A stretch of DNA of 43,613 nt from a virus. The translations under genes were made by a program, and so were the position numbers. The notes beneath the pieces are model-generated. The model made no database searches, had not been told where the DNA came from, and saw only the letters and a program-made list of their open reading frames with translations. This document shows, in pieces, positions 4,597-36,251 of this stretch (the stretch's first letter is position 1; the number at the start of each line of letters is the position of its first letter). Location: positions 1 through 43,613 of the IMG/VR virus record IMGVR_UViG_3300020459_000020; one strand, given 5' to 3'.

Positions 4597-4597
4597 T

Positions 4598-5131: not shown

Positions 5132-5148
5132 TAGTTTATTAACCAAAC

Positions 5149-5286: not shown

Positions 5287-5297
5287 TCAAGAAACCC

Positions 5298-5329: not shown

Positions 5330-5345
5330 GCAAAGGTAGATAAGA

Positions 5346-5759
5346 ATGCCTTCTTATAGGTTCAGATCAGAAAAATATGTCAGTAGAGGGTTTAAAGACT
5401 TAGCAACTTCGTTTAATGCTAACCCTGCTACTGGTGATTTTGGTGTGGTTAAGAATGAGAATGCTATTAAGCAATCTGTTCGTAACCTCATCTTAACTAT
5501 GTTCGGAGAAAGACCATTTCAACCCTCCATAGGATCGAAAGTAAGAGAGCTTTTATTTGAACCATGGGATCCATTCAGTGTTGATGCCATGAAAAGTGAG
5601 ATCTATAACGTTATAAACCGACTAGAACCACGTGTTGTATGCACTGGTGTTAGTGTTCGTGATGATTCTGAGGTTAACTCAGTACAAATAGCAATAGATT
5701 ATACGATTGTTGGACAACAGGAAGTCCAAAATGTCGATTTTCTACTAGAAAGAGCATAA
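5346..5759 (+). CDS. gp25: Baseplate wedge protein gp25 (GPW/gp25 family)
   Basis: This 137-residue protein is close to T4 gp25 (132 residues). It has the family hallmarks in order: an N-terminal beta part, then near residues 40-75 'VRNLILTMFGERPFQPSIGS' followed by K-V-R-E-L-L-F-E-P, which is the conserved R-N-L-L-T-x-x-G-E-R-x-x-x-P-x-x-G-[ST] core. The C-terminal strands carry the I-D-Y-x-I pattern. In T4, gp25 binds the gp6 dimer and seeds sheath polymerisation by presenting a sheath-like handshake fold, so it acts at the inner baseplate wedge. The ATG at 5346 is preceded by AAAGG (5332-5336). Its stop is one base before the gp6 ATG, as in the usual gp25-gp6 pair. I am confident of the family. 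Confidence 0.95.
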   Translation: MPSYRFRSEKYVSRGFKDLATSFNANPATGDFGVVKNENAIKQSVRNLILTMFGERPFQPSIGSKVRELLFEPWDPFSVDAMKSEIYNVINRLEPRVVCTGVSVRDDSEVNSVQIAIDYTIVGQQEVQNVDFLLERA

Positions 5760-5760
5760 A

Positions 5761-7860: not shown

Positions 7861-7865
7861 GATAG

Positions 7866-10800
7866 ATGCCGATTACAAAGAATATTAACGTCTCTGATAG
7901 GGTCGAAAATCAGTTACCTGAGTTTATTCGTCAGGAAGACAGACAACTAGTCAATTTCCTGTTTGAATACTATAAGTCTCAGGAAAAAACAGGTAGACCC
8001 TATGATATACTCAATAATTTACTGAGATATCTTGATCTTGATAGTTATACCTCTGAGCAGCTCGCTAGTGAAACGAAACTGCTTAAAGATATCGGTGTGT
8101 ACGATCGTAAGATCGAGATTGAAAGTATAAATGGATTCCAGGAGCAGAATGGCTCCATAATGATTGATAATGAGGTAATTTACTATGAATCTGTTACTCG
8201 TGGTCCTGATGTCATCATTACTCCTGGCATCTCTTATCCACAATTCAATAAGAAGAAACAACAACTAGAAAATCCCTTTACACTGTTTGATGGGACTGAA
8301 AATGTCTTCCCATTAAGTTTTCTAGGTACTCCAGTCGCTCCTCCTTCAGCAGAGCACCTAATTGTGACTGCTTACAACACAATGATGGTGCCAAACGTAG
8401 ATTACTACGTTGAAGGGTTTAATTTACGTTTTCAGGATGCTCCAAGAGATCAGATCGGATCTGATGACTCAGAATTCACTTCTGTAACTTATTTGGTCGG
8501 ATATTCAGATCAAGTAATCAAAACTTGCGATTCTATTCCATATCAAGAGTGGCAGAATACAAAAATCTATCCATTACGAATAAGCACAGCACCATACACT
8601 CCAACTTCCGAAATTGGATTAATAATTAACAAAAATGGTCGTTTACAAGTTCCATACGTCGATTTTACAGTTTTTGAAGATAAAGTTGTTTTCAAGAATG
8701 AAATCGGAGCTGCTGATGCTATTCATATTAGGTCTGTTGAATATACTCCTCCTTCTTACGGTGCAGGAGCCACAGCAATTGCTAAGGTTGCTGATGATGG
8801 CACAATAGACAGTTTGATCCCCAAAACTGGTGGATCTAAGTATAGACTTGATTTTGCACCTAGAGTTACTATCACAAGTAACACTGGTACTGGATCTACA
8901 GCAAAATCACTAATTGGTGGTATTAAAGATATCAATTTGATTGATGGTGGTCAAGGATACACTTCTTACAACCCACCAATCCCTGTTGTTGTTTCACCTA
9001 CTAATTCTAACGGTACACCAGCACAATTATCACTTACAGTCAATGATGTGACTGGAATGGTTGATTCTGTCACTATTACTAATAGTGGTAGTGGATATGA
9101 CTTCATTCCTTCTATATCATTTAAGAATCCTGGTGGTGCAGTTATTGAGAATCCTACTATTGACTCTGAAGGTAGAGTTAACGTAGGATCTATCAATGTT
9201 AAGGAGATGGGTAGTGGATATAGTAATCCACCTTTAATTTACATCGATGAAGCACCTGATGGTGGAATTAATGCTCAAGCTATAAGTAGAATTAATCAAG
9301 ATGGACAAGTTTATGAAATTACTGTCACAAACAGAGGTCGTGGATATACTTCTGTTCCTAGGGTGGCAATTGTCAACCCAATTGGTGCTCAGGTACTAGA
9401 CGTTACTGTAGCATCTGGATCAGTTACAAATATTGAAATGTTGACTGGTGGTCAAGGATATACCGATGCACCTTCAGTTTATATTGTAGATGATAGAAAA
9501 GACGGATATGGAGAACCAATAGGTGGCACTGGTGCTTTAGCAGAAGCAACCATCTTTAATGGTGAGATTACAGATATTAATATTACTAGTTTTGGATCTG
9601 GTTATTCTACAGAGTTTCCACCTAAAATATACATCGCAGAACCAAAAGCAGCAAGGGCATCTGTAGATGTTGGTTTTGATCAAGTTACTGGATTTGACAT
9701 TCTGGAAGATGGAGCAGGATATGCCTCCAGTGCCTTCCTAGGATGCTCTAGAGGCGTTTCAGGAGCAGTTGAGTACGATAACCTCCATAATGAGGTATAT
9801 GCTGGAGAAGCAGCTCTAAGACAGTCAAATCACCTTGCTGGTGCTTATGTTTGCAATCTTGACTCTTTATTCATTAAAGAAGTTTTTGATAAGTTTAGAA
9901 GACAGTATCTTCCAACCTTAGATATTGATTTTAGTCAAGTTAACCCTGTACAGGTCATTAAAAATATTAGTGACTTCTATATCTCTAAAGGTACTAAATT
10001 ATCAACTCAATATCTCTTCAAAATTTTATTTGGTGAAGATGTTGATCTTTACTATCCAAAAGATGAGATCATTAGTCCATCTCATGCAACTTGGGTTGTA
10101 GACACCATCTTACGTGCTGATCTAATAGAAGGTGACCCATCAAACTTAATAGATTCTCAAATTAACCAATATGCTGATGATGTAGACCCTAGTGTTACTG
10201 ATGCATCTGCTTTGATTGAAAATGTCATTACTATCATCGAAGGTACTGACACTATCTACGAATTAGCAATATCTGAAGAAACTTTAGCTGGTAACTTCAT
10301 TATACCTTATAAAACTCGTCTGGTTGAGCCTTTAAGCACTACTGGGCAGATAATTACGGTTGACTCCACTATTGGATGGCCCGAAAGGAATGGTACCATT
10401 AGAATCAATGATGTAGAGCAAGTCCAGTATAAGGAGAAGTCCCTTAACCAGTTCATAGAGTGTACACGGTCTAAGAATGCAATCGTCGAAGATTGGGATC
10501 CTGGTACTATAATTCAGTCCGATATCTTCGTTTATGTCAACAGAGGCACTGCACAGGAATGTAAGTTAAGGATTTTAGGTATTGCTGAAGCAGGTACCAC
10601 AGTACTAAACGATACTGGTAGTTACTACCTTCAGGGTGATAAATTGAAGGTTGCTAACCTTGGATCGACTGCTGAGGAGCTAAGACTCCAATCTTGGTTA
10701 TATAACGTTAAGAAATTGATTCAGGTTGGTACTATTACTCCTGGTGGTGTTAATAACCAAACTGCGACTGTAGTTTGCGGTAACCCTCACGGATTACTAG

Positions 10801-13800
10801 TTTCTGACCAAGTTACGATATATGGTGCAAACCCAGTTGTGTACAACGGTACATTTACTGTAACATCGAGAATTGACCAATTTACCTTCTCATATCAGAT
10901 TAATACTCCTACTGAGCTAATACCTCAAGGAAACATCCTATTATCTGTTGACCTTAACAGAGGTAAGTCTGATACCACTTCTATCAATAATGTTGTTAGT
11001 GAATTCACTACAAACATCCAAAACTCGTTTTTCAACGATAATTACGTTTATGTCGCTGCATCTGGACTTCCTAACTACAAAATAGGTCCATTTACAGGAT
11101 CTGCTCTAATTCCAGGAAACCAGAGAAAATTACTCAGATTCCCTAGAAATGTCCAGACTATATCAGAAAGAAAGATTATAGACCCAGGAACACCAATTGG
11201 TGCTTGGGTTAACGGTGTTTCTATCTGGTCTTACAAATCAAGAGAATTTATCCAGTATGGTCCTCTTACTAGCATTGCAGTTACTAATATTGGTGAAGGA
11301 TATGATGCTGGTGCTAAACCCAACGTAGAGATCACTGGGGGAGGTGGTACAGGTGCTACTGCTGAAGTTATCGTTAATGGTAGTCTAACCTCCTTCGATA
11401 TGGTTACTGAAGGTACTGGTTACACAGAATCACCTCTAGTATCGATTGTTGGTGGTAATGGTAGCGGTGCTACTGCACAAGCAGTTATTACTGGTGGTAG
11501 GGTAACAAGAATTCTAGTTGAGCAACCAGGACAAAATTATACTACGCAACCCCTAGTTTCTATCACAGGTGGTGGAGGTAGTGGTGCTACTGCTACTGCT
11601 AACGTCCGTGGTGCTATTGCTAGTGTAAATGTCACAAACTTCGGTAATGGTTATACTTCGCTTCCTGCTATCAAGGTTAACTCTGGTGAAGGTGCTCTAG
11701 CACAACCAATCGTTATTAACGGTAGAATTGTTTCTATCGCTATTATTAACTCTGGTGAATCCTATACAACTGCACCTAACGTAATTATCAATGGTGATGG
11801 ATTTGGTGCTATTGCTAAAGCAACTATCGGTAGTATTGGAGAAGATAGAGGTCGTGTATTAGGGATAACTATTACCAACAAGGGTATTGGGTATATACAG
11901 GGTACAACAACTGTTAGACTCGAAGCAGTGGGTCAATTAGCAGCATTTACTCCTACTGTGTATCAGTGGAATAAAAACCTTCAATATGAATTAGTAGATA
12001 AATTTGACTTTGCAAGAGGATATGTATTTACTGGATATAACAACCAGTTTGGTGGAGAATATGCACACCTATCAGATCCTAAAGAATTAAGATATGTTGT
12101 TGGTGATAACGTATTCCTAAACCCTGTTACTCAACTCTTCCAAGAAGTTGCTGCTAACTTTGAGCACTCTCCTGTTATTGGTTGGGCATTTGATGGTAAC
12201 CCAATATATGGTCCTTATGGATATATTGATCCAACTGATCAGAATAGTGGTGTTAGAAGGATGCGTACATCCTTCAAATTGAAGACTAATGTTGTATTTG
12301 ATGCTGCTACCAATCCTAACCCTTCTAGGGTAGATGGTCCTCCTATTGCAACTTATCCTGCTGGTACATTCATCGATGACTACTATTATGACTTCCAGTC
12401 TGGTGATCTAGACAATTATAATGGTCGTTTCTGTAAGACACCTGATTTCCCAGATGGGGTCTATGCTTACTTTATAACCATCGATGCTAGTGATGCAGGT
12501 ATTGCTGAATTCCCATATATCATGGGACCACAGTTTAACTCACTTCCAGATAACTGGAACTTCTCTCAAGCAGCAACACAAGAGAATATTCCTGATGGTG
12601 TTGTCCGTTATAGAGATCCATACACTGATGTTGATATTGATGTTGATCGTCAACCAAACCAAGAAGCAGATGTCCTTACTACAGAGATAGAAGGATATCC
12701 TTTAATCTTTGAAATACAAGACAGTAATAATGACGGTTTGATTGATGCTAACGAGCAACAAGAAATATTAAAGCTGTCAGAAGAGGCAACTCTACAGATC
12801 TATGATTACTTCCCAAAAGTCTCAGAAGAGTCCAGAGTTGATATTGAAGTTGAGACAACTACCCAGTTTGAGAATGCAAAAATTGATGGATTCGTTGTTG
12901 AAAACCCAGGTGTTTCCTATCAGGTAAATGACACTGTATTCTTCGATAATGAAAATACTGGTGGATTTGGTGCTTCTGCTATTATCGAGTCTGTTAAAGG
13001 TCAGAAGATTACTGGTTACAATAAAGAAATCATTGGTGACCGTCCATATGGTAAGATCGTCACTGAGGTTGAGCATGAGTTGCGTCAACAGGATGAGATT
13101 ATTGTAAATTCACGTCCTGTCATTGATAACACCAATAAGACCTACAGAGTTAAGGTTGTTGCAGGTGTTGAAAGAATTAACGTAGTCCAAGGTGGTACTG
13201 GATATAATAGTGATATTCCACCTACATTTGAATTAATTACTGCATCTGGTAAAGATGCTGAGTTAGCTCTAGTCCTAGAAGGTACTGGTCAGATTAACAA
13301 TGTTAATATCATTAACTCTGGTAATGGATACGATGCTGACAATCCTCCTCAGATTAGGGTATCTCATCCACAGCAATATAAGAAAACTCGTTATTGGATA
13401 ACAGAGTTTAAAGAAGCAACAGGTAGTGTTAGTATACATCATACATTAACTACTGCTGAAAGATACACTTATATTTGTGGTAGTGTCCTTGAGGCAGATG
13501 GTGATCAAGCAGCATTTCTTGCTAAGTTTGACGATCTAGGCCAGAAGGTTTGGGAAAGAAACTTATTACCACAAAACTCTGGTACTAAGAAAGCAGAATT
13601 CATCAAGATGTATATTGATGAGTCTGAAGAGAATGATGTAATTTATGTTGTTGGTCAGACATATGATCCAAATAATTCTGCATATAACCCTGATATTTGG
13701 TTAGGTGTATATAAGTCTGGATTTAATAATGCTAATTCTCCTGATGGTATTCTACAGTGGCAGAAGGCAATTGCAGGTATCTCAGGTCTTTCTAGAAGGG

Positions 13801-28800: not shown

Positions 28801-31800
28801 CATGCTCTAAAGATGGTAATTCTACTGATCATGTTTATCCAAGAGCATCAGATCCTGCATACAATAATTCACTTAGAATCATTGATGATGGTGTAACAAG
28901 ACACACTCCAACTGCTGCTTCTTACACACCAGGAACAGGTGTGCTATCACTAACAGTATCCAAGCATGGATTCTCAAATGGAGACTACATTAAGATTGAA
29001 GATTATGCATTCTCCATGTCATGTGATATGGATAATGATTCTAGCAGTCATGCATATCCTAGAGGTACAGATCCTATCAGTGGTAAGTGGGTACAAATTT
29101 CTAACGTATCTACAGATGGTTTTGATGTTGAAGTAGGCACAACTGCTGCTGTTAGTTACACTCCAACTGATGCATCTTACGAACCAACAACAGGTGAGAT
29201 GGAAGTTACCATTGGTAACCATGATCTTAAGGTTGGTCAAAGTGTCCAGATTGCTACAGGTGGTATAACCCTAGAATGTAGTCAGGATAGCTATGGATCT
29301 ACACATGCATATCCAAGAAATACAATTGATAATTTCACACCTACTGATGCTGATTACAGTGGAGAGACAGGTTACTTAACAATCACATCTGCTGCTCATG
29401 GATTAGATAATGGATCACTTGTTAAGATTGATGACAATGCAATAACCTTGCGTTGCACAATGGACGGAAGTACCAGTGACAAGACTTATCCTAGATCTAC
29501 TGACCCTGTAAGTGGTAAGTGGAAGCCTATTGAAAATGCTGCCACAGATACATTTGATATCTTCGTCGGTAAATCTGAATTCAAGAGTTTCGATCCTCAA
29601 AATGTAGACTATAATCCTTCTAACGGTAATATGGTAATTACTGTTGGTCCTGACCACGGTATTACAACTGCACACAGTGTTTATATTAACCGTGAATCAA
29701 TGTGCTTTACTTGTGGGCAAGATTCCTACGGTAGTGATCACTTCTATCCACGTCCTAATGGTAGTGGTGGTGCAACAGGAGATGATCCTGCATACGCTGA
29801 TGCTGTTTCTGTAACTGCTGTTAGTGATAGCACAATTACTGTTAACGTTGGTACTTCTTCTAATACTACTACTCACGTATTCAAACCTGCTGTAGGTAAG
29901 ACACCAACTGGAATTTCATATAGTGGTGCTACTGGTCTTATGACTGTTACTATGGCAAGTCATGGAATGATAGATGGTGAGCAGATCATGTTTGAAGATA
30001 ATTCATTGATCTTCACATGTGGTAAAGATGATCATGCTACTGAGCATGCTTATCCTAGACATGGAGATAATGCAAGTAATAAGTGGTTGACTATTGATAA
30101 TGTAACAAATAATACATTTAGAGTCCAAGTATTAGATAAGATTCCTTCTACAAATACTTCTGCTCATACATTTAAGAGAGCAGTACCTGGTGCTGTTAAG
30201 AGAGGATCAATCAGAGCTGGTGGATCATTCACTCATAGTTTCCAATCATTTGCTTCTAACGGACTTAAGGCAAAGAGAGATAGATCATACGATCATGCTA
30301 TTGAAATTAAGAAGGTAGGTCATGCTAAGTACTCTGCTAGTGGTGCTGCATACAATGCTGCTACTGGTGTATTGACACTGACAGTTGCTAACAACCCATT
30401 TGCTAATGGTGACCATGTAAGAATTGCTGACAATTCATTAGTAATGACTTGCGATATGGATAACAATGCAACTAATCATTCTTATCCAAGAGCAACAGAC
30501 CCTTCATCAGGCAAGTGGTTAGAAATATCTGGTGTTTCTGGTAACAACTTTAATGTTAATGTCGGAACTACACCTCGTGCTAACTACCTAGTTTCTGCTG
30601 CTGATTATACACCTACTACAGGTGATATGGTATTAACTATCGGTAGTCACAGCTATAACGGTGGATCATCACATACAGTAACAGGTGCTAACTATAATCC
30701 TACAACTGGTGTAATGACAGTAACAGTTGCTGATCACGGATTCGTGATTGGTGACAGAGTTAAGTTTGATGATAATTCAATAACCTTCCGTTGTGATGAA
30801 GATGGTCAAGCATCTGATCACTCATATCCAAGATCTACTGACCCAGTTAGTGATAGGTGGTTGGATGTTACTAACATTACTACAGATACATTTGATGTTA
30901 CTGTATTAGATTCAACTCCATCAAATAACACTACAACTCATGCATTCCAGTCTTCTGTCCCTAATGGTCTTAAGGTTGCTCATGAAGCAGTATACATTGA
31001 GAATCAATCATTAGTATTCAAGTGTCAAGCAGATAACTTTGGTAGTGAGCACAAATATCCTCGTGCTAATACACAGGGTGGTGCTACTGCTGATGATCCA
31101 TTCTATGATGAGTCATGTCCTATAGTATCTTCAACTGCTAATACAATTACAGTGCATGTTGGTAAGTCAAGTAACACTACAACTCACCAATTTGTAAGAT
31201 CTGAAAATGCATTTACTCCATCAACTGCATCTTATGTCCCAACAACAGGTGTGATGACAATTACACTTAATGGTCATCCATTTGAAAATGGAGATAAGGT
31301 ACAACTTAAGAATGAGAGTTTCGTATTCCAGTGTCAGCAAGATAATTATAATAGTGATCATGCTTATCCAAGAGCACAAGATCCTGCTGCTAATGATTGG
31401 TTAACAATTTCCAATAAGCAGACAAATACATTTGATGTTAATGTAGGAGTTTCTTCTAATACTACAACTCACCAAATTGAAACTATTCAATCAGGTGCAG
31501 TTATCAGAGGTACAATCAGAGGTGGTGGTGAGTACACACACGCATATGTAAGTGCTACTGCTAATGGATTAGAGAAGAAGAATTCTACAATTACTGTTAA
31601 CGTAGGATCTACAGTTAATGGTAACCATACACATAGATTTGCTTCTGCATCATCAGGTGCTATCACTGCTGGTGGTAACCATACTCATACATTTGAATCA
31701 TTTAAGAATAACACATTACACAGACAGAGTGGTAAGATTACAATTGATGTAAATATCGCTGCTACTGCTGATCTATACGATCATACATTTGTAAGAGCAT

Positions 31801-34800
31801 TACCTGGTGTTGTTATTGGTGGTGGTAATTATCAACATACCTTTATATCTGCTGAGGCAGGTGCTATATGGAAAGCACAAGATTATATTTCTATTAAGGA
31901 TTATGCTTTATCATTTACATGTGATTTAGATGCTCATGGTACTGAGCACTTATATCCAAGACCTACTGACCATGCTCATAACGAATGGTTAGCAGTATCT
32001 AATGTGACTACAGATACTTTTGAAGTCCAAGTACTTAAGGGTGTCCCATCTACCTTCTTAGGATCACATACATTTAAGTCATGTATTGATGATGGTATTA
32101 AGATACAAAATGGTAAGATAAGAATTAACGTAGGTATATCACCTGCTGGTAATACCTATCAACATACATTTGTAAGTGCTAACTCTGGATGTATAATACA
32201 GGGTGGTAATTATAAGCATAACTTTGTAAGTGCACTTTCAAATTCTATTAACGTAGTTAATGATGGTACACAACTTACACCTACTGATGCATACTATGAG
32301 CCAACTACAGGTCAGTTAACTCTAACTGTTTCTGGTCACTCACTACGCACAGATGATGCTATAACAATTGACACTAATGGATTAACATTTACATGTAGTC
32401 AGGATGCTAACCAGACAAACCACGCATATCCTCGTGTGACAGATTATGCTGACGGTAAGATACTACCTGTCCAATCTGTAATGTCTTATGCATATCCATT
32501 CAGGACAGAATTAGCTTACTATCGTTCACGTAGAGTTGATCCTACTTACACAGGTAATGAAGGTTCTATTGTAGAAGGTGAAATTGGCACTCTAATGCAA
32601 TTGGTAACAGATGCTATTAGTAGTCCTAATAGTATTGAAGGTAGATCCTATACACAACCTATATGTTGGCCCGTCAAGTATACACCAGATGTTGTTAAGA
32701 GAGATCTAACAATAACTTATGATAGTGCTGCTGGTGGAGATAATGAGAATGGCACATGGAATCAGACTTGCTCTGAAACTGCATCTGCTATTGCTACATT
32801 GTCTGATATTTACATTGAAACAATTAGTAAAGCAGCAAATGGTCAAGGTAATCATTTATCTACTATAAGCAAGACAAATGCATATAATAATAACAATGAT
32901 TATCAAGAAGGTACATGTTATAACGTAACTTCAAACATTGATACATTGTTTGAAATTATGACTGATACCCTTGGTGCTGGTGCATACAATAGTAGATATG
33001 TTTCTAACATCATACTCTTTAATAAAGATAATATTGCTGGTAGAGCATTTGCTGACTGTCAAGCAAATTATCCAACTACCAATTTAACTATAGACTTTGC
33101 TAATGGTGTCGTTAAGGCATTACGTTATGATTTAGTTACTGGTGGTAATGCTGGAGCATTTAAATACTCACAAGATTGGTTTGATGGTGAAGGTAACTTC
33201 ATAGCATTTACTAATGTAACTAGGACTCATATTCTATTCTGCTTAACTAAGATACGTGAATATTCTAAGAGTATAATTTATGATGCTGAAGCAACTGGTT
33301 GGAATTCATATGCTGTTTATATCCCAGAAACATTAGAGTGGAATAAGGAAGCTGCTGAGTTTATGATTGACACATCACTCAACCCACTTGAATATGCATT
33401 AGAAATGTCTCAGTATCCTACTGAATCAAGAGTAACATTCGTAGCATCTACTGATTGCACAAACAGAGTTACTAAGTATGAGATGGGTGTTGACTATAAC
33501 ACTGATCCTGATCTAGTAAGTCTAACACCTGAAGTTGATGTAGGATTTGACCGTGCTGAATATAGGATTAGAATTGAGCGTCCTAATAACTTCAGACGAG
33601 GGGATGTTCTTACATACATTCCTGCATCTGAGAATGCATTACAAGGTCTTACTAAGCAACCATACTTCTATGTGTTAACTGGTACTGCTCAATGGTTTGA
33701 AATTGGTGCTGAGCCAATTCACGATGGTAGATTTAGATTATTACAAGTAGATAAGTCTAACTCTGGATCTCAGATATTGGCAGTTGAAAGAAGAAGTGGT
33801 ATTACAAGAACTGCTCCTACATATCCAACAGACAATTCAGCATGCCCAATCCAAGGTGGATTTAATGCTGCTGATGTTGTATACGGTAGCACATCTGGTG
33901 CTAATGCTGAGATTGCATCTGTCCTAGCAAATGAAGGTAAGATTTACAAACTCTATACTCATTATCCAACGGTTGCTGGTCAGACTGCTGGTGCTTACGA
34001 TCAATTTAAGAATGGTGAGCAAGTTGCTGTTTCTGGTGCACCTGCTAACACAGGATATGTCCTACAGACATTAACACCTGATTCTGAAACTGGTGCATCT
34101 ATAGTTAAATTAAATACTATTGCTGGTACCATCGCTGATGGAGATGTAATTGAAGGTCTTGATAGTGGTGCAGAACATACAGTCGGTCTTCCATCTGATA
34201 GATTCTTAATCAATGTTAAGAGTGGATCATTCGCTACAGGTGATTGGTTCTTCAGTAAGGTTGGATCCTTAGAAGGATACATGGAAAATTATGTAAGTAA
34301 GTCTGGATCACTAACAGGTAATGAAGGTGGTAGAATTACAATTGATGTTGAAACTTTAGAAGGGGCATGGACTCCTGGTGATGTTATTTACGGTAGTGTT
34401 ACAGATTACATCTTAACCATTAAAGGTATCACTGGACAGCAACTTCAACTTAATCAGTGGATACATGGTACACAAACTCTAGAATTAAATCTAGGTGTAG
34501 CAATCATTGACACAGGTATTTCTGATACATTCAACGTAGGTGATGAAGTATCACTCCTACAAGGTACTGTGCAGAAGAATCCAGGATTTACTGCTGTAGT
34601 AACCAAGTATGTTAATGACACTGAAGCTGGAATCCATAAACTTTGGATTGCTAATTTGAATGATGTTGGTGTTGGTGCTCCTTTAACAGATCTAACTGCT
34701 GGTGGTAATAACATTGGTAAGATAGAAATAGGATCTAACTTCCCAACAATATATGCTGGTGTCCAAACATACACTGAGACCTCATATACATCTTACGCAC

Positions 34801-36251
34801 AGGTAGTTGCTATAGAGCAACAAGGTATTACAGGTACAATCTGGGTACAGTCTGCTAATGGTAACTTCCTTGATAATATGACACTTAAGTCTGACTTTAA
34901 CTGGGGTGCAGGTGTTTCTTCTGCTCGCACACTTGAAGGACGTGTTGACAGATACTTCAGAGGATTCGATGGCACTCAATCAACATTCGACTTAACCATT
35001 TCTAATGGTCAGGCATACTTCCCAGATCCTGCTGGACACTTACTTACATTTGTAAATGGTATCCTACAACCTCCAGGTGGTAATGCTTCTTATGTTGCAT
35101 TCTCTGACAAGATACAATTCTCTGAGGCACCTGAAATTGGATCTGACTTTATTGGATACTATGTTGGTAAGTTACGTCAGTTAGATGATATCTCCTTCGA
35201 GTTTGACTCATTGAGATCTTCATTCAACCTTAAGCGTGGTGGATTATTCTACTCACTGACATTGACTGAAGGTGTTTCTTCTAACACTATACGTCCTGAG
35301 AATAACATTATCGTATCACTTAACGGTATTATTCAGGAACCTGGACTCGCATATGAGATCGTTGGTTCACGTATAATTTTCGCTGAAGTTCCACGTGCGG
35401 GATCAACTTTCGTTGGTTTCTCATACATTGGATCTGACGCAGACGTTATCGCAGCAACCGTTGTCCCACCAATTGAAGCTGGTGATAAATTAGACATTGA
35501 GGGTGAAGAATTTGCAAGAGAAGTTGCTCTAATTGAATCTTCTAACTCACTAATCACATTTGAATATACTGGATCTGTTAAAGGTAGAAATGCTCAGGCA
35601 ATTTCTAACATAATATCTGGTCAAATCGTTAACGCAGTACTAACCAATCCTGGCGATGGTTACACAACACGTCCTAACGTGGATGTCATTTCATCTTCTG
35701 GATTTGATGGTAAGTTGAAAGCGTTGATGGGTATTACTAGAATTGATGTTAAGACACCTGGTGTTGGTTATGCTGCTCCTGTTGTCGCAATCGATAACGT
35801 AGTTCCAGATGATTTCGTACCACCTGTAGGTGGTCCAATTAATGGTGGATTTGACGTACTCGCTGGCGAAGGTAGCGAATACACAGGTGGTGGTGCTGGT
35901 GTTGATGCTGGTACTATTGCAATTACACAGGATCCAGTTAACGTAACTGTTAACCAAGGTCAGACTGCTGCATTCACAGTTGTCTCTACTGTAACTAATG
36001 ATCAGACAATGAATTATCAGTGGCAGAAGAAGGAGTATGGTACACAAACTTGGGGTAACATCATTGGTGCTAACCAAGCAACATACAATACAAATGCAAC
36101 ACAACAGGCAGACGATGGTGACGAATATAGAGTCGCAATCACTGCTGCTGGTGCAACTCCAGTCTACTCATTATCCGCTATCTTAAGCGTCCAGACAGGT
36201 GCTACTGTAATCAGTAACTTCACACCGAATCTGATCTTTGACGACATCTAA
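7866..36251 (+). CDS. Giant 9461-residue multidomain virion/baseplate protein
   Basis: This is one uninterrupted frame, ATG 7866 to TAA 36249-36251, of roughly 1 MDa. It occupies the place of T4 gene 7 (1032 residues) between gp6 and gp8. Residues 1-750 resemble a marine-phage baseplate protein head: 'QLPEFIRQED..LVNFLFEYY' near residue 17 and 'NISDFYISKGTK...LFKILFGEDVDLYYP' near 700. Approximate later modules are: GxGY repeats (297-626, 1134-1352, 1680-1840, 3122-3330), YHYH-type domain (1429-1555), propeller-like (1839-2220), LamG-like (2240-2437, 4458-4620, 5297-5477), carbohydrate-binding-like pair (2662-2793), helical repeats (3935-5262, again 8205-8508), 26 Cys/His 'YPR' repeats (5478-8203), a repeated 'LNGIIQ' module (3680, 9140) and an Ig-like domain (9352-9447). 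There is no signal peptide or membrane segment. The start follows gp6 by five bases with weak Shine-Dalgarno. The virion role is inferred from context and modules; its individual function is unknown. Confidence 0.88.
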   Translation: MPITKNINVSDRVENQLPEFIRQEDRQLVNFLFEYYKSQEKTGRPYDILNNLLRYLDLDSYTSEQLASETKLLKDIGVYDRKIEIESINGFQEQNGSIMIDNEVIYYESVTRGPDVIITPGISYPQFNKKKQQLENPFTLFDGTENVFPLSFLGTPVAPPSAEHLIVTAYNTMMVPNVDYYVEGFNLRFQDAPRDQIGSDDSEFTSVTYLVGYSDQVIKTCDSIPYQEWQNTKIYPLRISTAPYTPTSEIGLIINKNGRLQVPYVDFTVFEDKVVFKNEIGAADAIHIRSVEYTPPSYGAGATAIAKVADDGTIDSLIPKTGGSKYRLDFAPRVTITSNTGTGSTAKSLIGGIKDINLIDGGQGYTSYNPPIPVVVSPTNSNGTPAQLSLTVNDVTGMVDSVTITNSGSGYDFIPSISFKNPGGAVIENPTIDSEGRVNVGSINVKEMGSGYSNPPLIYIDEAPDGGINAQAISRINQDGQVYEITVTNRGRGYTSVPRVAIVNPIGAQVLDVTVASGSVTNIEMLTGGQGYTDAPSVYIVDDRKDGYGEPIGGTGALAEATIFNGEITDINITSFGSGYSTEFPPKIYIAEPKAARASVDVGFDQVTGFDILEDGAGYASSAFLGCSRGVSGAVEYDNLHNEVYAGEAALRQSNHLAGAYVCNLDSLFIKEVFDKFRRQYLPTLDIDFSQVNPVQVIKNISDFYISKGTKLSTQYLFKILFGEDVDLYYPKDEIISPSHATWVVDTILRADLIEGDPSNLIDSQINQYADDVDPSVTDASALIENVITIIEGTDTIYELAISEETLAGNFIIPYKTRLVEPLSTTGQIITVDSTIGWPERNGTIRINDVEQVQYKEKSLNQFIECTRSKNAIVEDWDPGTIIQSDIFVYVNRGTAQECKLRILGIAEAGTTVLNDTGSYYLQGDKLKVANLGSTAEELRLQSWLYNVKKLIQVGTITPGGVNNQTATVVCGNPHGLLVSDQVTIYGANPVVYNGTFTVTSRIDQFTFSYQINTPTELIPQGNILLSVDLNRGKSDTTSINNVVSEFTTNIQNSFFNDNYVYVAASGLPNYKIGPFTGSALIPGNQRKLLRFPRNVQTISERKIIDPGTPIGAWVNGVSIWSYKSREFIQYGPLTSIAVTNIGEGYDAGAKPNVEITGGGGTGATAEVIVNGSLTSFDMVTEGTGYTESPLVSIVGGNGSGATAQAVITGGRVTRILVEQPGQNYTTQPLVSITGGGGSGATATANVRGAIASVNVTNFGNGYTSLPAIKVNSGEGALAQPIVINGRIVSIAIINSGESYTTAPNVIINGDGFGAIAKATIGSIGEDRGRVLGITITNKGIGYIQGTTTVRLEAVGQLAAFTPTVYQWNKNLQYELVDKFDFARGYVFTGYNNQFGGEYAHLSDPKELRYVVGDNVFLNPVTQLFQEVAANFEHSPVIGWAFDGNPIYGPYGYIDPTDQNSGVRRMRTSFKLKTNVVFDAATNPNPSRVDGPPIATYPAGTFIDDYYYDFQSGDLDNYNGRFCKTPDFPDGVYAYFITIDASDAGIAEFPYIMGPQFNSLPDNWNFSQAATQENIPDGVVRYRDPYTDVDIDVDRQPNQEADVLTTEIEGYPLIFEIQDSNNDGLIDANEQQEILKLSEEATLQIYDYFPKVSEESRVDIEVETTTQFENAKIDGFVVENPGVSYQVNDTVFFDNENTGGFGASAIIESVKGQKITGYNKEIIGDRPYGKIVTEVEHELRQQDEIIVNSRPVIDNTNKTYRVKVVAGVERINVVQGGTGYNSDIPPTFELITASGKDAELALVLEGTGQINNVNIINSGNGYDADNPPQIRVSHPQQYKKTRYWITEFKEATGSVSIHHTLTTAERYTYICGSVLEADGDQAAFLAKFDDLGQKVWERNLLPQNSGTKKAEFIKMYIDESEENDVIYVVGQTYDPNNSAYNPDIWLGVYKSGFNNANSPDGILQWQKAIAGISGLSRRDWVTSIALDQEKRIYIAGYTDSNSPDPNDMWVIQCDLDGDLVEKRKIASADDSEMLNQIQWISDDRFFFVGVNDQNDDCIFGVFFYDGANIEIEYIRQVPTQNGYVRNPQFAIDEYDDVILIWDVFNGATQKFEKVQVNKFPISTANSQWEWSKTVTISGNIEGINHAGINVDVFGNYSIVTDITESENQRYAVIHYLKYDGNVIKETKVDDINSIGFQAKDHTVDSTGDTIIAIDRRQPDQMASYRFNNDTDIDEDTTKQELVTPTFHTPSNSTVDTAIQKFGTGSLKLSGICPVKLPGYNLTTKEWSARAWMSIATGHHSINTKPLLFDVTPVAGDSIQVELDGDATSGNYEKVVLYVNSVEVATSATAVNWTAFASAAWVHVTFQKREESLGLYQYEVFLNGNLVVNFQTTSDISLADLTLAGKYSGPNTGNSLIGWIDDLVIDDVAPYNGTYTIPTEEIPITTSISDSALIKFDRLHDKRDAYTLTGLTKYTNITFSDIEIPTTWVDVSGSALSNWDVGAGGLQILDMSQVVSTMNPGTYTFSTAKTEYATKTSTIPSPLGKKLKITADVISKFYLRDALYQKIDNVLEFTFNQDVKLTKNSILQQYTNTASGQVVGGFGTIVDVPNADDLLNPGVGNKYKVGKIYGTFNNTDLFKTDVADVNQIAGTYFQVEEPEIPWVAATSVVTGEKRYYDKKIYQSQGTGTTGTIPPVHTGGVVTDGLINWAFVDDAGKFTVDLTQHPYPMPQYLNLDMPEWDSGKLYVVGQKVWHKLNVYVVGAGGAGVSGTTPPTHTSATASDGGVTWTWESTSQSISQYARTLPYDLGNNYTVQIVEIQPGSTYIPEDVVSINAGNITEAEDQKSVEISGFASVKKIRVTARLEKDILRTADTRTNLVYATSNSPHRFNDGEIIFTEGFQGDQFNGSFFVDQVVGSREFTYAIRANAVSDPVFNSNAIANVNIYAKHPTLEFTRNHQYVFDVSDPSNLNYYLSFSQDNQYKLEYSFNNITRSGTPGIPLGGSAYPFVKFSVLGDVTNISYYFDPSRTGSDSPVGEGSFIDVITTPFQGTFSVSEVLSDTEFRFQLLKEPERTNAEVGTDEFDNVYSYYSTTSTRAVGPINTIQLVSPGGFYQKLPIISDIASFRQIEKITINDGGTEYAPGVYYEVPVAGDGEGGKATITVEFDAEVGSGTITNAQVADPGKGYTIASIDIDSIPGILGQTLAGSGGSVNVVIPSEGSGASVFLTGTNIGKIKRLKNNEFGFGYSHDYTLKPEITFPVNLQLFNTSILSQIKITDPGSGYTSTPAVVIEGGGGSGAEAEAIVKNNRLSEIIIKNSGAGYSSEPVVTLKSEFNYVVNLDLNYLQFNFPHGITTGAEIQFRADDIGSTEGELPKPSTAGLTSLVANQTYYAIAGEAAGLESDQLRFGLTSASAQGGSFITFLTQGSGRQTLLTEVFGGKATAVIETSRFLEGEDVFQGSNVETSTARGKVSTNTGWQIGPKILKIVDYTGDWANGETVTGEISKASGVIDNFSIARGVLNIGSLTKTPGRFIDDVGKPSEIVQKIQDSFFYQNFSYVVQSQIPITEWKTQVLENNHPAGFNMFGQLQLTGGKDVSGRRIGTEFTKQVNINNYSNVNQITSFGAAQPIYTDYNNTEVLFRKKRLTSSEEILTSIVKKMDNIQGQFDGIKKQFPITVEGETVIVKQDQLMITLNGIIQSPGISYQIVGGSLVFDEPPKPPSKVNYRTLGVTPTPIYRIALYDSGGTSNYGIFPTLGQQVQGQQSDTIATIIDSGTNHIDVINLTGTFDINEQIKRGELFAALVESVTPLNAPTIFEFGEALTNLDGDTAYVEETNIDNQGNVTDRLVVSKTSGTPRFETGIFDFKLNEFIYSASSKIAGQITFIQPYTDPINNEVVDELIINKGTTFFGLLFERLVSLTNPNVILDDISQSSITPTELYNSDNRINADFLNFEQVKTTEVTYSNVTGGTLTDGMLIRNKKATYGNPVSTFHGIAANRYLDSRRNILNNKDEIIDFAEASIAIDYPDYYFPTDVITNSWSRFKDAYRMIQKNKAMIAGMAFDDMKTQYPGSTIPSDAKCKRDLEYFVDAISIDIYAGGNRYSRKFVSQYFDTNGTFTYVDGEKAETRFAYEKAIDRMKAAIANQYSGTINAVNSGDSWTAYQDLTITADPNPTGNYGSAGSNVDNTNADNCTDVQAAITTLGEFIDEVLNNSSLVDLPAETVGTYSPHQEKCRRDLGYFIDAIAADVGQGGNYNTIEFTKKFFNADGTPLTNGIVGEEAEAVHAFTSAGTLMHSAINNLMYWKDLSGNGYNLNDPTTYSGGVAPANNYDANYSSGNNQNINNCANVKSYIDTLKAIATTAMTAGNLTNVNAIASITDGTFQSNETVRTTKVGYKDKSTGLFITGDQIKGMSSGAVFSAIGVNSGLKWLFAGPISGSFTADEYITNSTLTFTNCTQSVIVKKAELSGSKSIFIPSNGALSSPASTDYAFGTGDFTIEAWIRPSGNTTLQTLFDFRRLSAAQGLRIVQDSQAINVYNGTTQSITSGNVVTTTGTWMHIAVSRKDNVTQLYVNGAQVGTNYVDNNDYLYAALYVGQDFNGSTHWTGHMDNVVVKKGVGDYTTGFQAPSQVDYTQSNIVFGLDGEAPFLISTEEVYAKYSGQRSSSATSKTIDYDGLAIIAEDIDLGRQEYRDCADIIDLNGAYIAEEAVGRMKAAFSDFVIRGDDPQNNRYGGTDTCIRDTKDYILGALIKDLREGGNYHTIYTARTYLTVGGQLDHIGEEILQALYTWNQVSELAKEVITTTSGDLTGTYSTRLRIPNNFSSPAATAVQNELDTLMGDLLKVIAPNDQRFREGGYQLWRNRNYIAEEVAGYIQDKYQTTIDNVTTDFLEMPGYGQPYCERDIKDFILPGVIADLVTGGTYQTQAVIDKYLDSQNNVLHVEHELNALNDSLHFASMLCMKAINNLLMSPGEVAAALLDNDGVAMSVPGWAQEEYYTPLFTTQVAYRDSTIVKDTEGFPNTIQRGNNDRYLDAADQIWANKDIIAREVVSIMNDLSKYETLNIPGGHVNCEDDVLDMIEAMVHDLRFDCNEKTYDAAALYVETEDNSLKHIETEWEASITVVKILRDILSATMRNAFGRDYDMTKDLLQVPVQSYNQNPKDTLYAECADAIDGNIRYIAEQAVSAGLVQYQNLAIPGGPVNCVHDVTDILRAMVFNLKYGGTNMLQYASEFYTTYNGSLDHVTNASSETNWIINKAKELAIRAMKGQVISNNAGWEVDQRFYDAVPRPVTALFNSNEDGLIAGQPNTIITRSFIAGEDKISTTDSGTGIVPGEDAVFRCIAKLPTNPLDGVIWEAGGAGSGAWFGIRDSGTYLRLRAGNGGNSYSGGASSTSDTGLAMLDLQISNLSTYFDNGDHELVWEIRIGGNITAGKGRVELWIDGISVGSAETPGGGYTGLAGGNGLFADSNYAGFGVQGGDSICAGEPSTINTFTVNVGPAPTIAYDVTAAEYDSSTGDLVMDVGSHNHTEGTYLRLKTNSINFTCDQDGNASTHSYPRSGDPAGNTAIEVLEVFGTEWKATGATYTPDSGIMTLTVPGHGMADNTTHTATDAAYDPDTGVLSITVADHGFTTGDQVRIQNGSLVFTCAQDNHASKHGYPRPGDPAGDQWLLVESIVNDNIFTVNVGSTPKVEYDVSDATYDQNTGELQMDIGQHRFVGATTHVATYAEYTADNGYLKLTVPGHKIAPGEQIQIMENSMTFTCSMDNHYSDHVYPRATDPATRKWLDVVESDIEGGTFTVNVGQSPIKGFTPTAATFNSSTGALTLTIGSHSLAVGTNIKLAQQSLTFTCDMDDHATKHSYPRGNDPVHNEPIAITAVTSDSITVNVGTTPQVNYNVLGAAFNPADGHLSMTLDRKHTFKTESIHSVSGAEYNGQTGLMRLTVADHNFGEGDFVKIADGGVSFTCSMDNYASVHAYPRSTDQMSGKWMAVQNVSKDQFDVHVGKTPAIPFTISAADFDPSTGLMKMTIGDHDLRAGNSVRLAKESIVLTCYLDAHNSTHAYPRSNGNDPFYNKPIPILYDGSPLTATSGTFYNPTTGIMRITTDTAHGLQEGSEVKFALNSLVFRCDEDGQATDHPYPRAGDPYANRWQRVLGSNLTANQFEVQVLSYAPSTNTTTHVFQGATANGISKKDGTITLNVGNGAISDQSAHIYIPNTGMTPTNVNHNPTTGVMTITVVGHGMEDGDMIKIADNGIVLTCALDEHQTTHAYPRPSDPASGTWLKISGVTAETFDVQVLGGNAPQSDTSTHLFSSAIGNCITRAQVVSGGIYDHTYSTSTVDCLRHAGDSIRLADDALTFTCGADGNGSNHTYPRSATTQHTPTDVTYNPSIGHLKFTVPDHGFLPYSYVKIADNSLTFTCKKDNDATDHTYPRSTDPVSGKWVMIHDVSANTFTVEVLDVIPSTNTTVHSISNIAANCITHKKDHFYDTNIPIYEVGKSSHSPTNISYNPTHGYMQVTMSQSFSDATNMSPTGASFTPTTGIMRINLSGHSVKNGDMILINEGAFVFRCDEDGQSSDHAYPRATDPASNKWLKAFNVGSNSFDVNVGNFLGEGAISNTTTHVCTNVVGSVYKANDYVMFDENAITFQCTKDNNATNHSYPRRSDPTFGDWLPIANVTNTSFTVWIGKSGVNDVYDHTFVSCANNGMKRQTGTITLDVGNGQITNPTAHSFVSAASNAVRSGGAYNHTFVASTEKYTPTTANYNPTTGWMTLTVPNHGFLDGESIMIQTNSLVFNCLADSNATDHAYPRGGDPASNRWLTIYNVTDDTFDVKVLDETPSTNQSLHLFKSALSNCITRATVATGGNYSHKFIAPAQLTPTNATYTPSTGIMTLTISNHGIKNGGRVKVEDGFVTFTCTQDSNQTNHSYPRASDPFSDEWMTVKNVTKDTFDIQVLFNIPSSNTTTHTFVSARPQSVTVATLMKGNDSIKLAANGLTFTCSKDGNSTDHVYPRASDPAYNNSLRIIDDGVTRHTPTAASYTPGTGVLSLTVSKHGFSNGDYIKIEDYAFSMSCDMDNDSSSHAYPRGTDPISGKWVQISNVSTDGFDVEVGTTAAVSYTPTDASYEPTTGEMEVTIGNHDLKVGQSVQIATGGITLECSQDSYGSTHAYPRNTIDNFTPTDADYSGETGYLTITSAAHGLDNGSLVKIDDNAITLRCTMDGSTSDKTYPRSTDPVSGKWKPIENAATDTFDIFVGKSEFKSFDPQNVDYNPSNGNMVITVGPDHGITTAHSVYINRESMCFTCGQDSYGSDHFYPRPNGSGGATGDDPAYADAVSVTAVSDSTITVNVGTSSNTTTHVFKPAVGKTPTGISYSGATGLMTVTMASHGMIDGEQIMFEDNSLIFTCGKDDHATEHAYPRHGDNASNKWLTIDNVTNNTFRVQVLDKIPSTNTSAHTFKRAVPGAVKRGSIRAGGSFTHSFQSFASNGLKAKRDRSYDHAIEIKKVGHAKYSASGAAYNAATGVLTLTVANNPFANGDHVRIADNSLVMTCDMDNNATNHSYPRATDPSSGKWLEISGVSGNNFNVNVGTTPRANYLVSAADYTPTTGDMVLTIGSHSYNGGSSHTVTGANYNPTTGVMTVTVADHGFVIGDRVKFDDNSITFRCDEDGQASDHSYPRSTDPVSDRWLDVTNITTDTFDVTVLDSTPSNNTTTHAFQSSVPNGLKVAHEAVYIENQSLVFKCQADNFGSEHKYPRANTQGGATADDPFYDESCPIVSSTANTITVHVGKSSNTTTHQFVRSENAFTPSTASYVPTTGVMTITLNGHPFENGDKVQLKNESFVFQCQQDNYNSDHAYPRAQDPAANDWLTISNKQTNTFDVNVGVSSNTTTHQIETIQSGAVIRGTIRGGGEYTHAYVSATANGLEKKNSTITVNVGSTVNGNHTHRFASASSGAITAGGNHTHTFESFKNNTLHRQSGKITIDVNIAATADLYDHTFVRALPGVVIGGGNYQHTFISAEAGAIWKAQDYISIKDYALSFTCDLDAHGTEHLYPRPTDHAHNEWLAVSNVTTDTFEVQVLKGVPSTFLGSHTFKSCIDDGIKIQNGKIRINVGISPAGNTYQHTFVSANSGCIIQGGNYKHNFVSALSNSINVVNDGTQLTPTDAYYEPTTGQLTLTVSGHSLRTDDAITIDTNGLTFTCSQDANQTNHAYPRVTDYADGKILPVQSVMSYAYPFRTELAYYRSRRVDPTYTGNEGSIVEGEIGTLMQLVTDAISSPNSIEGRSYTQPICWPVKYTPDVVKRDLTITYDSAAGGDNENGTWNQTCSETASAIATLSDIYIETISKAANGQGNHLSTISKTNAYNNNNDYQEGTCYNVTSNIDTLFEIMTDTLGAGAYNSRYVSNIILFNKDNIAGRAFADCQANYPTTNLTIDFANGVVKALRYDLVTGGNAGAFKYSQDWFDGEGNFIAFTNVTRTHILFCLTKIREYSKSIIYDAEATGWNSYAVYIPETLEWNKEAAEFMIDTSLNPLEYALEMSQYPTESRVTFVASTDCTNRVTKYEMGVDYNTDPDLVSLTPEVDVGFDRAEYRIRIERPNNFRRGDVLTYIPASENALQGLTKQPYFYVLTGTAQWFEIGAEPIHDGRFRLLQVDKSNSGSQILAVERRSGITRTAPTYPTDNSACPIQGGFNAADVVYGSTSGANAEIASVLANEGKIYKLYTHYPTVAGQTAGAYDQFKNGEQVAVSGAPANTGYVLQTLTPDSETGASIVKLNTIAGTIADGDVIEGLDSGAEHTVGLPSDRFLINVKSGSFATGDWFFSKVGSLEGYMENYVSKSGSLTGNEGGRITIDVETLEGAWTPGDVIYGSVTDYILTIKGITGQQLQLNQWIHGTQTLELNLGVAIIDTGISDTFNVGDEVSLLQGTVQKNPGFTAVVTKYVNDTEAGIHKLWIANLNDVGVGAPLTDLTAGGNNIGKIEIGSNFPTIYAGVQTYTETSYTSYAQVVAIEQQGITGTIWVQSANGNFLDNMTLKSDFNWGAGVSSARTLEGRVDRYFRGFDGTQSTFDLTISNGQAYFPDPAGHLLTFVNGILQPPGGNASYVAFSDKIQFSEAPEIGSDFIGYYVGKLRQLDDISFEFDSLRSSFNLKRGGLFYSLTLTEGVSSNTIRPENNIIVSLNGIIQEPGLAYEIVGSRIIFAEVPRAGSTFVGFSYIGSDADVIAATVVPPIEAGDKLDIEGEEFAREVALIESSNSLITFEYTGSVKGRNAQAISNIISGQIVNAVLTNPGDGYTTRPNVDVISSSGFDGKLKALMGITRIDVKTPGVGYAAPVVAIDNVVPDDFVPPVGGPINGGFDVLAGEGSEYTGGGAGVDAGTIAITQDPVNVTVNQGQTAAFTVVSTVTNDQTMNYQWQKKEYGTQTWGNIIGANQATYNTNATQQADDGDEYRVAITAAGATPVYSLSAILSVQTGATVISNFTPNLIFDDI
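8755..9745 (+). repeat. GxGY beta-repeat cluster 1 in the giant gene
   Basis: About eight units of 35-45 codons appear, each with the pattern 'I/V-x-x-I-x-[IV]-x-x-x-G-x-G-Y-[TS]-x-x-P-x-[IV]-x-I' followed by a Gly/Ala-rich turn. Motifs include GQGYT, GSGYD, GSGYS, GRGYT, GQGYT, GSGYS and GAGYA. The alternation of strand and Gly turn suggests a stacked beta structure (solenoid, prism or triple-stranded helix). Confidence 0.8.
11265..11925 (+). repeat. GxGY beta-repeat cluster 2 in the giant gene
   Basis: Six regular units with long Gly runs (GGGGTGATA, GGNGSGATA, GGGGSGATA) alternate with GEGYD, GTGYT, GQNYT, GNGYT, GESYT and GIGYI motifs. The period is about 36-40 codons. Three further looser units (GVSYQ, GTGYN, GNGYD) follow at about 12900-13350, after the YHYH-type domain. 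Confidence 0.8.
12150..12530 (+). other. YHYH-type domain inside the giant gene (lacks the YHYH tetrad)
   Basis: The stretch contains 'SPVIGWAFDGNPIYGPYGY', then M-R-T-S-F, 'GTFIDDYYYDFQSGDLD', N-G-R-F and a F-P-Y-I-M-G end, which is the core of the YHYH family (PF14240) around residues 1435-1555. The same core recurs in the next gene (36266-37861). Here the upstream tyrosine/histidine tetrad that names the family is absent; only 'FEHSP' precedes the core. Confidence 0.75.
13380..14525 (+). other. Beta-propeller-like segment of the giant gene
   Basis: Roughly 380 residues show repeated blades of the kind 'IYVVGQTYD...DIWLGVYK...G..QWQKAI', 'IYIAGYTDS...DMWVIQCDLDGDLVEKRKI', 'FFFVGVNDQ', 'FGNYSIVTDIT'. 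Each has a hydrophobic strand, a Gly-containing turn and Trp or Asp at blade ends. This resembles SBBP/PQQ-type propeller repeats. Blade number cannot be fixed by eye. Confidence 0.55.
14583..15175 (+). other. LamG-like jelly-roll domain 1 of the giant gene
   Basis: 'KFGTGSLKLSG' is followed by 'EWSARAWMSI', a 'VHVTFQK' strand, 'YEVFLNGNLV' and 'GWIDDLVIDDVAPYNG'. This is the order of conserved strands in the concanavalin A-like/Laminin_G_3 fold, including the terminal 'I-D-D-[LV]-x-I' strand. Such domains often bind glycans in phage fibres. Confidence 0.75.
15850..16245 (+). repeat. Tandem pair of small carbohydrate-binding-like modules
   Basis: Two copies share the layout 'G-[EK]-x-x-Y-x-x-[GK]-[KQ]-[IV] ... 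Y-x-x-x-G-x-[GS]-x-x-G-T-[IT]-P-P-[VT]-H-T ... [TS]-D-G-x-[IV]-x-W'. This resembles the short CBM5/12-like modules common in phage tail proteins. Copy 1 is near 15865-16005 and copy 2 near 16072-16240. Confidence 0.55.
17230..17860 (+). repeat. GxGY beta-repeat cluster 3 in the giant gene
   Basis: The motifs GTEYA, GKGYT, GFGYS, GSGYT and GAGYS are separated by 30-60 codons with Gly-rich turns such as GGGGSGAEA. This is the same unit type as the earlier clusters. A fourth mini-cluster (GDGYT, GVGYA) lies at about 35640-35790 near the C-terminus. Confidence 0.75.
19670..23650 (+). repeat. Helical repeats of the 'C-x2-D ... GGNY' type (six copies)
   Basis: Six units of roughly 130-180 codons carry C-x-[RD]-D-[LIV] then an amphipathic helix, D-[LI] and a G-G-N/T turn, followed by 'Y..E..L.H...E'. 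The anchor cysteines lie near 20083, 20541, 22048, 22534, 23044 and 23440. A partner helix 'N-[KR]-x-[YI]-I-A-E-E-[AV]' precedes most copies (for example near 21940, 22420, 22945, 23350). A LamG-like domain interrupts the array between copies 2 and 3. I recall similar repeats in cyanophage structural proteins; their function is unknown. Confidence 0.75.
21240..21725 (+). other. LamG-like jelly-roll domain 2 of the giant gene
   Basis: The ordered motifs are: 'DYAFGTGDFTIEAWIRP', 'QTLFDFR', a 'WMHIAVSRK' strand, 'TQLYVNGAQV', 'LYVGQDFNG' and 'GHMDNVVVKKGV'. These fit Laminin_G_3/concanavalin A-like domains closely. This is the clearest of the three copies. Confidence 0.85.
23757..24297 (+). other. 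LamG-like jelly-roll domain 3 of the giant gene
   Basis: Gly-rich strands 'WEAGGAGSGAWFGIRD' and 'LRLRAGNGG' are followed by 'HELVWEIRI', 'GRVELWIDGISVGSA' and a final 'YAGFGVQGGDS'. The 'V-E-L-W-I-D-G' strand corresponds to the L-Y-V-N-G strand of the other copies. The match is weaker than for domain 2. It directly precedes the YPR repeat array. Confidence 0.55.
24298..32475 (+). repeat. Array of 26 Cys/His 'YPR' protein repeats
   Basis: I count 26 occurrences of C-x2-D-x3-[ST]-x-H-x-Y-P-R between Tyr5543 (24492) and Tyr8188 (32427), a mean spacing of about 106 residues. A full unit reads approximately: [ST]-P-T-x-A-x-Y-x-P-x-T-G-x-M-x-[IL]-T-[IV], then H-G-x-x-x-G-D, K-[IL]-x-x-x-[SA]-[LIV]-x-[FL], the Cys/His/YPR block, D-P, a K-W-L-x-I-x-N-V strand and 'T-F-x-V-x-V' ending. 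Copies near 26928 and 29310 lack the segment after YPR. The copy near 29487 has Lys in place of the His. I cannot name a described family for the unit. Confidence 0.9.
31521..31870 (+). repeat. His-rich 'Y-x-H-T-F' sub-repeat run without YPR blocks
   Basis: Five consecutive short units occur here: GGGEYTHAY, NGNHTHRF, GGNHTHTF, LYDHTF and GGNYQHTF. They are spaced about 17-30 codons apart and interleaved with strands such as 'STITVNVG' and 'GKITIDVN'. Single or paired units of the same type (YDHTF, YNHTF, YSHKF, FTHSF, YQHTF, YKHNF) lie between YPR blocks elsewhere in 26800-32230. Two units have the His-x-His pattern. Confidence 0.7.
32480..33390 (+). other. Further helical repeat after the YPR array
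   Basis: The stretch includes 'TASAIATLSDIYIETI', 'LFNKDNIAGRAFADCQANYP', then 'VVKALRYDLVTGGNAGAFKYSQDWF' split over a turn, followed by 'ILFCLTKIREYSKSI'. The order matches the helical repeats at 19670-23650 (partner helix, Y-D-L, G-G-N turn, Tyr/Phe-rich helix). The large YPR array therefore sits inside, not beside, this helical family. Confidence 0.65.
34960..35450 (+). other. 'LNGIIQ' beta module of the giant gene C-terminal part
   Basis: Two adjacent copies have the pattern '[LV]-x-x-[FL]-[VL]-N-G-I-[IL]-Q-x-P-G', then A/S-Y and I-x-F/F-[SA]-E-[AV]-P-x-x-G-S, with 'F-x-G-F/Y' ends. A third copy occurs near 18900-19020 ('LNGIIQSPG', 'LVFDEPP'). The module is common in marine-phage structural proteins as far as I recall; its function is not established. 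Confidence 0.6.
35920..36210 (+). other. C-terminal Ig-like domain of the giant gene
   Basis: 'ITQDPVNVTVNQGQTAAFTV' leads into Y-Q-W-Q-K, 'GANQATYNTNATQQADDG', E-Y-R-V-A-I and 'LSAILSVQ'. This is the I-set-like order: Q-x-P-x-x-x-x-V-x-x-G-x-x-A-x-F, W, and a D-G-x-x-Y/E-Y-R strand. A homologous domain ends the next gene. Ig-like domains are frequent surface-exposed additions in tailed-phage structural proteins. Confidence 0.8.

Follow-up and report, generated by a model that had tools for sequence, protein, structure and literature searches.

The 43,613-bp stretch of DNA analyzed here (the window), which is an entire IMG/VR record and a linear fragment, carries one gene of about 28.4 kb that encodes a 9461-residue protein with a well-supported homologue of the T4 baseplate wedge protein gp7 at its core. 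On balance, we infer that the product is a giant gp7 homologue anchored in the wedge, with a putative role as a peripheral adhesin or apron that partly replaces missing tail fibres. The gene is of a kind already known, the gp7-like "baseplate wedge initiator" of marine cyanophages. What is added here is the assignment of the gp7 core with controls, a size series of proteins at the same locus and a rule by which a backbone and a repeat array make up their length; the literature searched held no paper with any of these three, although such an absence is not proof.

The open frame and its surroundings

The window represents a cyanomyovirus baseplate wedge cluster of T4-like, Kyanoviridae type, and its nearest named relatives are Kyanoviridae. 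Genes for gp25-, gp6-, gp9/gp10-type and gp8-like proteins surround the giant gene (Table 1), in agreement with the T4-like baseplate region named in the original prediction. The giant gene follows gp6 immediately, and gp7 of T4 likewise comes after gp6 (T4 comparisons refer to record NC_000866.4). The counterpart of the truncated DUF4815 protein in P-TIM40 has about 2480 aa. A YHYH domain (PF14240) was encountered twice, within the giant (12051-12488) and in the next gene downstream (36266-37861). GxGY motifs are common to several structural proteins (8763-9770 and 11253-11915 in the giant, 39365-41266, 41301-42836 in gp8, and 448-4596), a distribution resembling that of a building module in common.

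Table 1. Genes of the window and modules of the giant protein (aa, residues of the giant).
Feature	Position	Strand	Evidence
gp25-like wedge protein	5346..5759	+	PF04965, E 1.8e-13
gp6-like wedge protein, immediately 5' of giant	5761..7860	+	phrog_219, E 2.7e-200
Giant gene of gp7 type (baseplate wedge), 9461 aa	7866..36251	+	frame and single-CDS homologues
gp7 core, N-terminal helices, aa 9-60	7890..8045	+	register with T4 gp7 644-690, weak alone
Two tail-fibre/tailspike-type beta domains, aa 124-217 and 218-299	8235..8762	+	VIA-align, profile A6
GxGY block 1 (beta repeats), aa 300-635, within gp7 core	8763..9770	+	motif positions; pLDDT about 90
gp7 core part 2, aa 655-814, DFYxSKGT helix pair and beta domain	9828..10307	+	hhalign, fold match
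GxGY beta-repeat block 2, aa 1130-1350	11253..11915	+	PHROG matches, motif positions
YHYH domain (PF14240)	12051..12488	+	E 5e-28
Beta-propeller (SBBP) repeat	13785..13868	+	E 1e-4
LamG/ConA-like lectin domain, weak	14685..15137	+	E 8e-4, below curated cut-off
Tail-fibre-type beta domain 3	18816..19056	+	alignment A6
Conserved backbone block helA, aa 3960-4370, CxxDL motif	19743..20975	+	block comparison; repeat site A next to it in relatives
LamG (Laminin_G_3, ConA-like) domain	21303..21677	+	E 1.2e-19, above cut-off
Conserved backbone block helB, aa 4680-5270	21903..23675	+	block comparison
YPR beta-barrel array, about 26 repeats, aa 5477-8235	24294..32570	+	HMM matches, model
Conserved backbone block helC, aa 8240-8540	32583..33485	+	block comparison
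Conserved C-terminal part, aa 8560-9300	33543..35765	+	alignment A2, 74% mean column identity, five phages
Two tandem tail-fibre-type domains	34917-35441	+	alignment A6
Ig-like domain, weak	35922..36119	+	E 0.1; PHROG tail-protein match
YHYH virion structural protein, next gene downstream of giant	36266..37861	+	domain and PHROG profiles
gp9/gp10-type connector	37885..39363	+	PF07880, phrog_677
gp8-like wedge protein	41301..42836	+	PF09215, phrog_438
DUF4815 protein, start only, cut by contig end	42841-43611		

In the ORF listing of the window, the giant frame starts with ATG and runs for 9461 codons with zero stops, and the record holds no ambiguous bases. The mass computed from the translation is 1025.8 kDa (pI 4.69), which bears out the earlier estimate of about 1 MDa. 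By base composition alone, the probability of so many stop-free codons is ~10^-294; the five other frames of the same stretch contain 474-1432 stops each and no open run longer than 158 codons. Along the entire frame, a coding pattern is maintained in the G+C content of the three codon positions.

An uninterrupted phage gene of this length had been predicted, and the same frame was found in nine other IMG/VR records, with 9458, 9553, 9559, 9560, 9581, 9914 (three times) and 9922 aa. One of these is a 199-kb contig (G041) with a frame of 9914 codons, and the three 9914-aa frames may stem from one virus assembled from different samples. Distinct lineages are nevertheless represented among the long-frame contigs (G001, G002, G005, G011, G012 and G014), several of which differ at 70-85% DNA identity. 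Furthermore, a contig from another sample (L158) matches positions 25221-34799 of the window at 99.9% over 9579 contiguous bases. Codon comparison with six IMG/VR relatives gave dN/dS between 0.11 and 0.37 for all segments, with somewhat higher values in the array, so that selection on the giant gene is purifying along its whole length, as the original prediction had supposed in speaking of strong selection. Given the recurring frames, the 99.9% match and the low dN/dS, we conclude that the gene is real, recurrent and translated in-frame over its full length.

A sharp mosaic was observed in the giant gene of one relative, G013 (loci L124-L125, IMGVR_UViG_3300006329_000009), in which aa 1-~3000 share 98% DNA identity with G012 and aa ~3500-9000 share 99-100% with G002; this reflects either intragenic recombination or a chimeric assembly.

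As the window is a metagenome contig, and as the mosaic relative could be chimeric, it was considered that assembly had fused separate genes or inflated a repeat. This is extremely improbable and was rejected: several lineages hold the long frame in nine other contigs, cultured phages carry homologous single genes of 6.6-8.6 kaa, 9.6 kb of the frame reappear at 99.9% in another sample, and orthologous repeats stay in register while paralogues are only 31% identical in amino acids. Copies within the frame average 48% DNA identity (maximum 65%), so that the earlier arguments that the domains diverge at the DNA level and that a simple assembly duplication is not the source both hold.

The gp7 core and its relatives

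To place the giant relative to known wedge proteins, a core profile built on the DFYxSKGT segment of the giants and their shorter relatives was compared with a T4-type gp7 profile. It matched T4 gp7 725-758 (hhalign Prob 95.6, E 1.3e-8), over only about 35 columns, whereas the controls T4 gp6, gp8, gp9, gp10, gp11, gp12 and wac reached a Prob of at most 0.8. As the match is short (34 columns), its strength is moderate. A bridge is provided by the wedge protein of Sinorhizobium phage phiN3 (1006 aa), which matches both T4 gp7 640-829 (89%) and residues 671-819 of the window protein (97.6%); the short gp7 of Moby is a second bridge to the core.

The AlphaFold model of aa 1-870 has a mean pLDDT of 81, with the core helices less certain (about 55-70). 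In a Foldseek search of 350,542 chains, gp7 of a KP1-type phage, 5hx2 and 5iv5 (T4 gp7) were placed on ranks 1, 3 and 4, with a best E of 2.7e-4 and low probability. VIA-align superposed residues 746-814 on T4 gp7 767-823 (57 residues, rmsd 2.1-2.3, Z 5.0), an arrangement that could be a common one, and the fold and sequence alignments agree in register. The helices of aa 9-60, taken alone, were aligned with T4 gp7 in register at a Prob of 1.6, by which kinship of this segment is not proved. gp7 was reached only by the narrower core profiles and by fold comparison: a search of PDB sequences with the N-terminal profile A1 gave no match at E up to 10, and no counterpart of the N-terminal ~640 aa of T4 gp7 was detected in the first 900 aa of the giant. 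Taken together, homology of the core to T4 gp7 is well supported by position, profile, bridges and fold, each of which is modest by itself. T4 gp7 (1032 aa, PDB 5IV5/5HX2) aligns in register over the core motif and the beta domain and occupies the slot after gp6, but it is nine times shorter and its match to the giant is limited to the core.

A tblastn search with the first 800 residues returned 482 phage records, nearly all of them cyanophages. At the same locus, single annotated CDSs of 6619, 6737, 7351 and 8573 aa are present in S-SZBM1 (S-SZBM1_208), S-WAM1 (gp159), P-TIM40 (gp099) and P-RSM6 (CPXG_00128), annotated as virion structural protein or baseplate wedge initiator. Their N-terminal ~3800-5270 aa are collinear with the window protein at 54-61% identity and the C-terminal ~1250 aa are conserved, so that collinear homology to named wedge-initiator members holds at both protein ends. 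The "baseplate wedge initiator" gp7 of P-SSM4 (AAX46881.1, 7312 aa) shares 890 N-terminal aa at about 45% identity and the gp6-gp7 order of the window, but is 2149 aa shorter and more distant in sequence. Proteins at the gp7 slot thus form a size series from Moby (503 aa), phiN3 (1006), T4 (1032), Vibrio phage K571 (1164) and S-CRM01 (1454) through S-SSM7 (3007), S-SM2 (4156) and P-SSM4 (7312) to the window (9461) and G014 (9922 aa).

In S-SSM7 (NC_015287.1, L156) two genes are annotated as gp7 (3007 and 3001 aa) with one small gene between them. The gp7 core match lies only in the first and YPR-type repeats lie in the second, and the phage appears to carry parts of the giant as two genes. The giant gp7 N-terminus was also found at 63% identity on a 188-kb contig of Nonlabens xiamenensis 1Q3 (NZ_RMVE01000006.1, L237), probably a contaminating phage genome in the assembly of a flavobacterial isolate; MAGs of Flavobacteriales and Euryarchaeota contain phage contigs with giant gp7 too.

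Modules and the YPR array

Outside the core, the ~8600 residues consist mostly of beta modules of phage-fibre/tailspike and lectin-like kinds. The gp7 core itself is split, with ~600 residues of beta domains between aa ~60 and ~655, and the gp7s of Moby and phiN3, which are short, lack GxGY block 1. The beta domains of aa 124-299 were aligned by VIA-align with CBA120 TSP4 264-334 (Z 7.6, rmsd 1.9) and with the N-terminus of T7 gp17 (Z about 6). A joint profile of five tail-fibre-type domains (A6) matched a depolymerase of the K1 capsule at E 3.9e-6; a weak match was the fibre of cyanophage P-SCSP1u. PHROG 701 ("virion structural protein", 6136 positions) was matched piecewise from 3 to 6121. 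The C-terminal profile A2 had no match among PDB sequences at E up to 0.1, and an NCBIfam search gave none. A tape-measure ruler was considered and rejected as ill-fitting, given the position, the gp7 core and the beta-rich make-up.

The YPR array accounts for the size of the giant. By HMM, 26 YPR repeats were counted in the window, 18 in P-RSM6, 5 in P-TIM40 and 0 in S-WAM1 and S-SZBM1, partly at another site than in the window. Among 20 full-length proteins, length follows 6737 + 103 x copies with r = 0.997, a value that is descriptive and carries no test because the proteins are related. The order of blocks is identical in 20/20, and repeats are restricted to the gap between helA and LamG, the gap between helB and the next block, and the position directly past that next block. 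In S-WAM1 the residues that flank the array of the window adjoin (window 5271 and 8208 correspond to S-WAM1 5463 and 5459). The giant is therefore a roughly constant backbone of ~6.7 kaa with 0-30 repeats of ~103 aa at two or three permissive sites, and array copy number determines protein size. Members of the array pair mostly one-to-one between relatives of the window at about 80% identity, as against ~31% aa identity within an array, indicating that the array is old and maintained, with no recent expansion.

A two-repeat model showed a small beta barrel (domain pLDDT mostly 83-94). Its best PDB match is the barrel of phi92 endosialidase (Z 7.1, rmsd 2.7, 83 aa, 19% identity), a likeness below the level of kinship; Foldseek of the repeat against the PDB gave nothing significant (best E 0.0095), the repeat profile found only weak, chance-level matches among PDB sequences, and the catalytic propeller of endosialidases was not found in the giant. 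In BFVD, the repeat occurs in cyanophage baseplate wedge initiators, in tail fibres and in one annotated endosialidase, while the GenBank phages that carry it are all cyanophages or unnamed marine viruses, in which tail-fibre genes also contain it.

Virion location and proposed role

A chain of this size could be a polyprotein that is translated as one and cut into several virion proteins, in which case the particle would hold no 1-MDa polypeptide. T4-like phages cleave head proteins, and the many separable domains would suit such a fate; we know, however, of no processing of T4 tail wedge proteins. In LC-MS of CsCl-purified virions of S-SZBM1, the homologue S-SZBM1_208 (6619 aa) was detected with 71 peptides (PMC9146016). 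These span just 13.5% of the protein, as might be seen with fragments, but it was reported as a single 724-kDa entry, and we regard cleavage as improbable.

In T4, six copies of gp7 lie at the wedge periphery in contact with gp6 and gp8, and a domain of gp7 binds the protein that attaches the long fibres, gp9 (PMC3004832). Cyanomyoviruses are without g10, g11, g12, g34, g35, g37 and wac (PMC2984593), and S-SZBM1 has no visible long fibres, which is likewise stated for S-WAM1, P-RSM6 and P-TIM40 (PMC9146016). A gp9/gp10-type gene is nonetheless present in the window and its relatives. If every one of the six wedges incorporates a gp7 core, about six copies, or ~6.2 MDa, would surround the tail tip. 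Their long acidic arms of ~8600 residues would form a peripheral apron able to bind the cyanobacterial surface and could take over the work of the tail-fibre and pin proteins absent from cyanomyoviruses, with repeat number setting the reach or the count of binding modules. The modules common to the giant and to known fibres and tailspikes (CBA120 TSP4, T7 gp17, K1 depolymerase, the fibre-borne repeats) are consistent with such a role.

The arm might instead be purely structural, making up a large rim of the baseplate or stiffening the tail tip, and binding no receptor. T4 gp7 is a structural protein (PMC3004832), and GxGY repeats recur in other structural proteins of the window, including gp8, both in favour of a scaffold. 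We consider this rather unlikely in view of the LamG lectin domain, the tail-fibre-type domains, the repeats in common with annotated tail fibres and the fibre genes missing from the group (PMC2984593), and prefer the wedge-anchored adhesin.

In a 2021 survey of viral proteomes, the largest bacterial-virus protein listed was the 7312-aa baseplate wedge initiator of P-SSM4 (PMC8553790). The window protein is longer than this and the P-RSM6 record, and IMG/VR holds still longer ones, to 9922 aa. The giant thus ranks with the largest known virion proteins (virion location is known for the S-SZBM1 homologue), and its gene of ~28 kb would take up some 15% of the genome if this is like the 190-200 kb of relatives. 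Tentatively, host attachment may have moved from separate fibres into the wedge protein, and changes in the number of repeats (0-30 at defined sites) might then have tuned, in the course of evolution, the reach or avidity of a six-armed baseplate adhesin of ~6 MDa. The natural length series of 6.6-9.9 kaa can be used for testing the role of the array, and the module map, with a fixed gp7 core, a fixed C-terminus and expandable repeat sites, indicates where the adhesins of cyanomyoviruses are to be sought.
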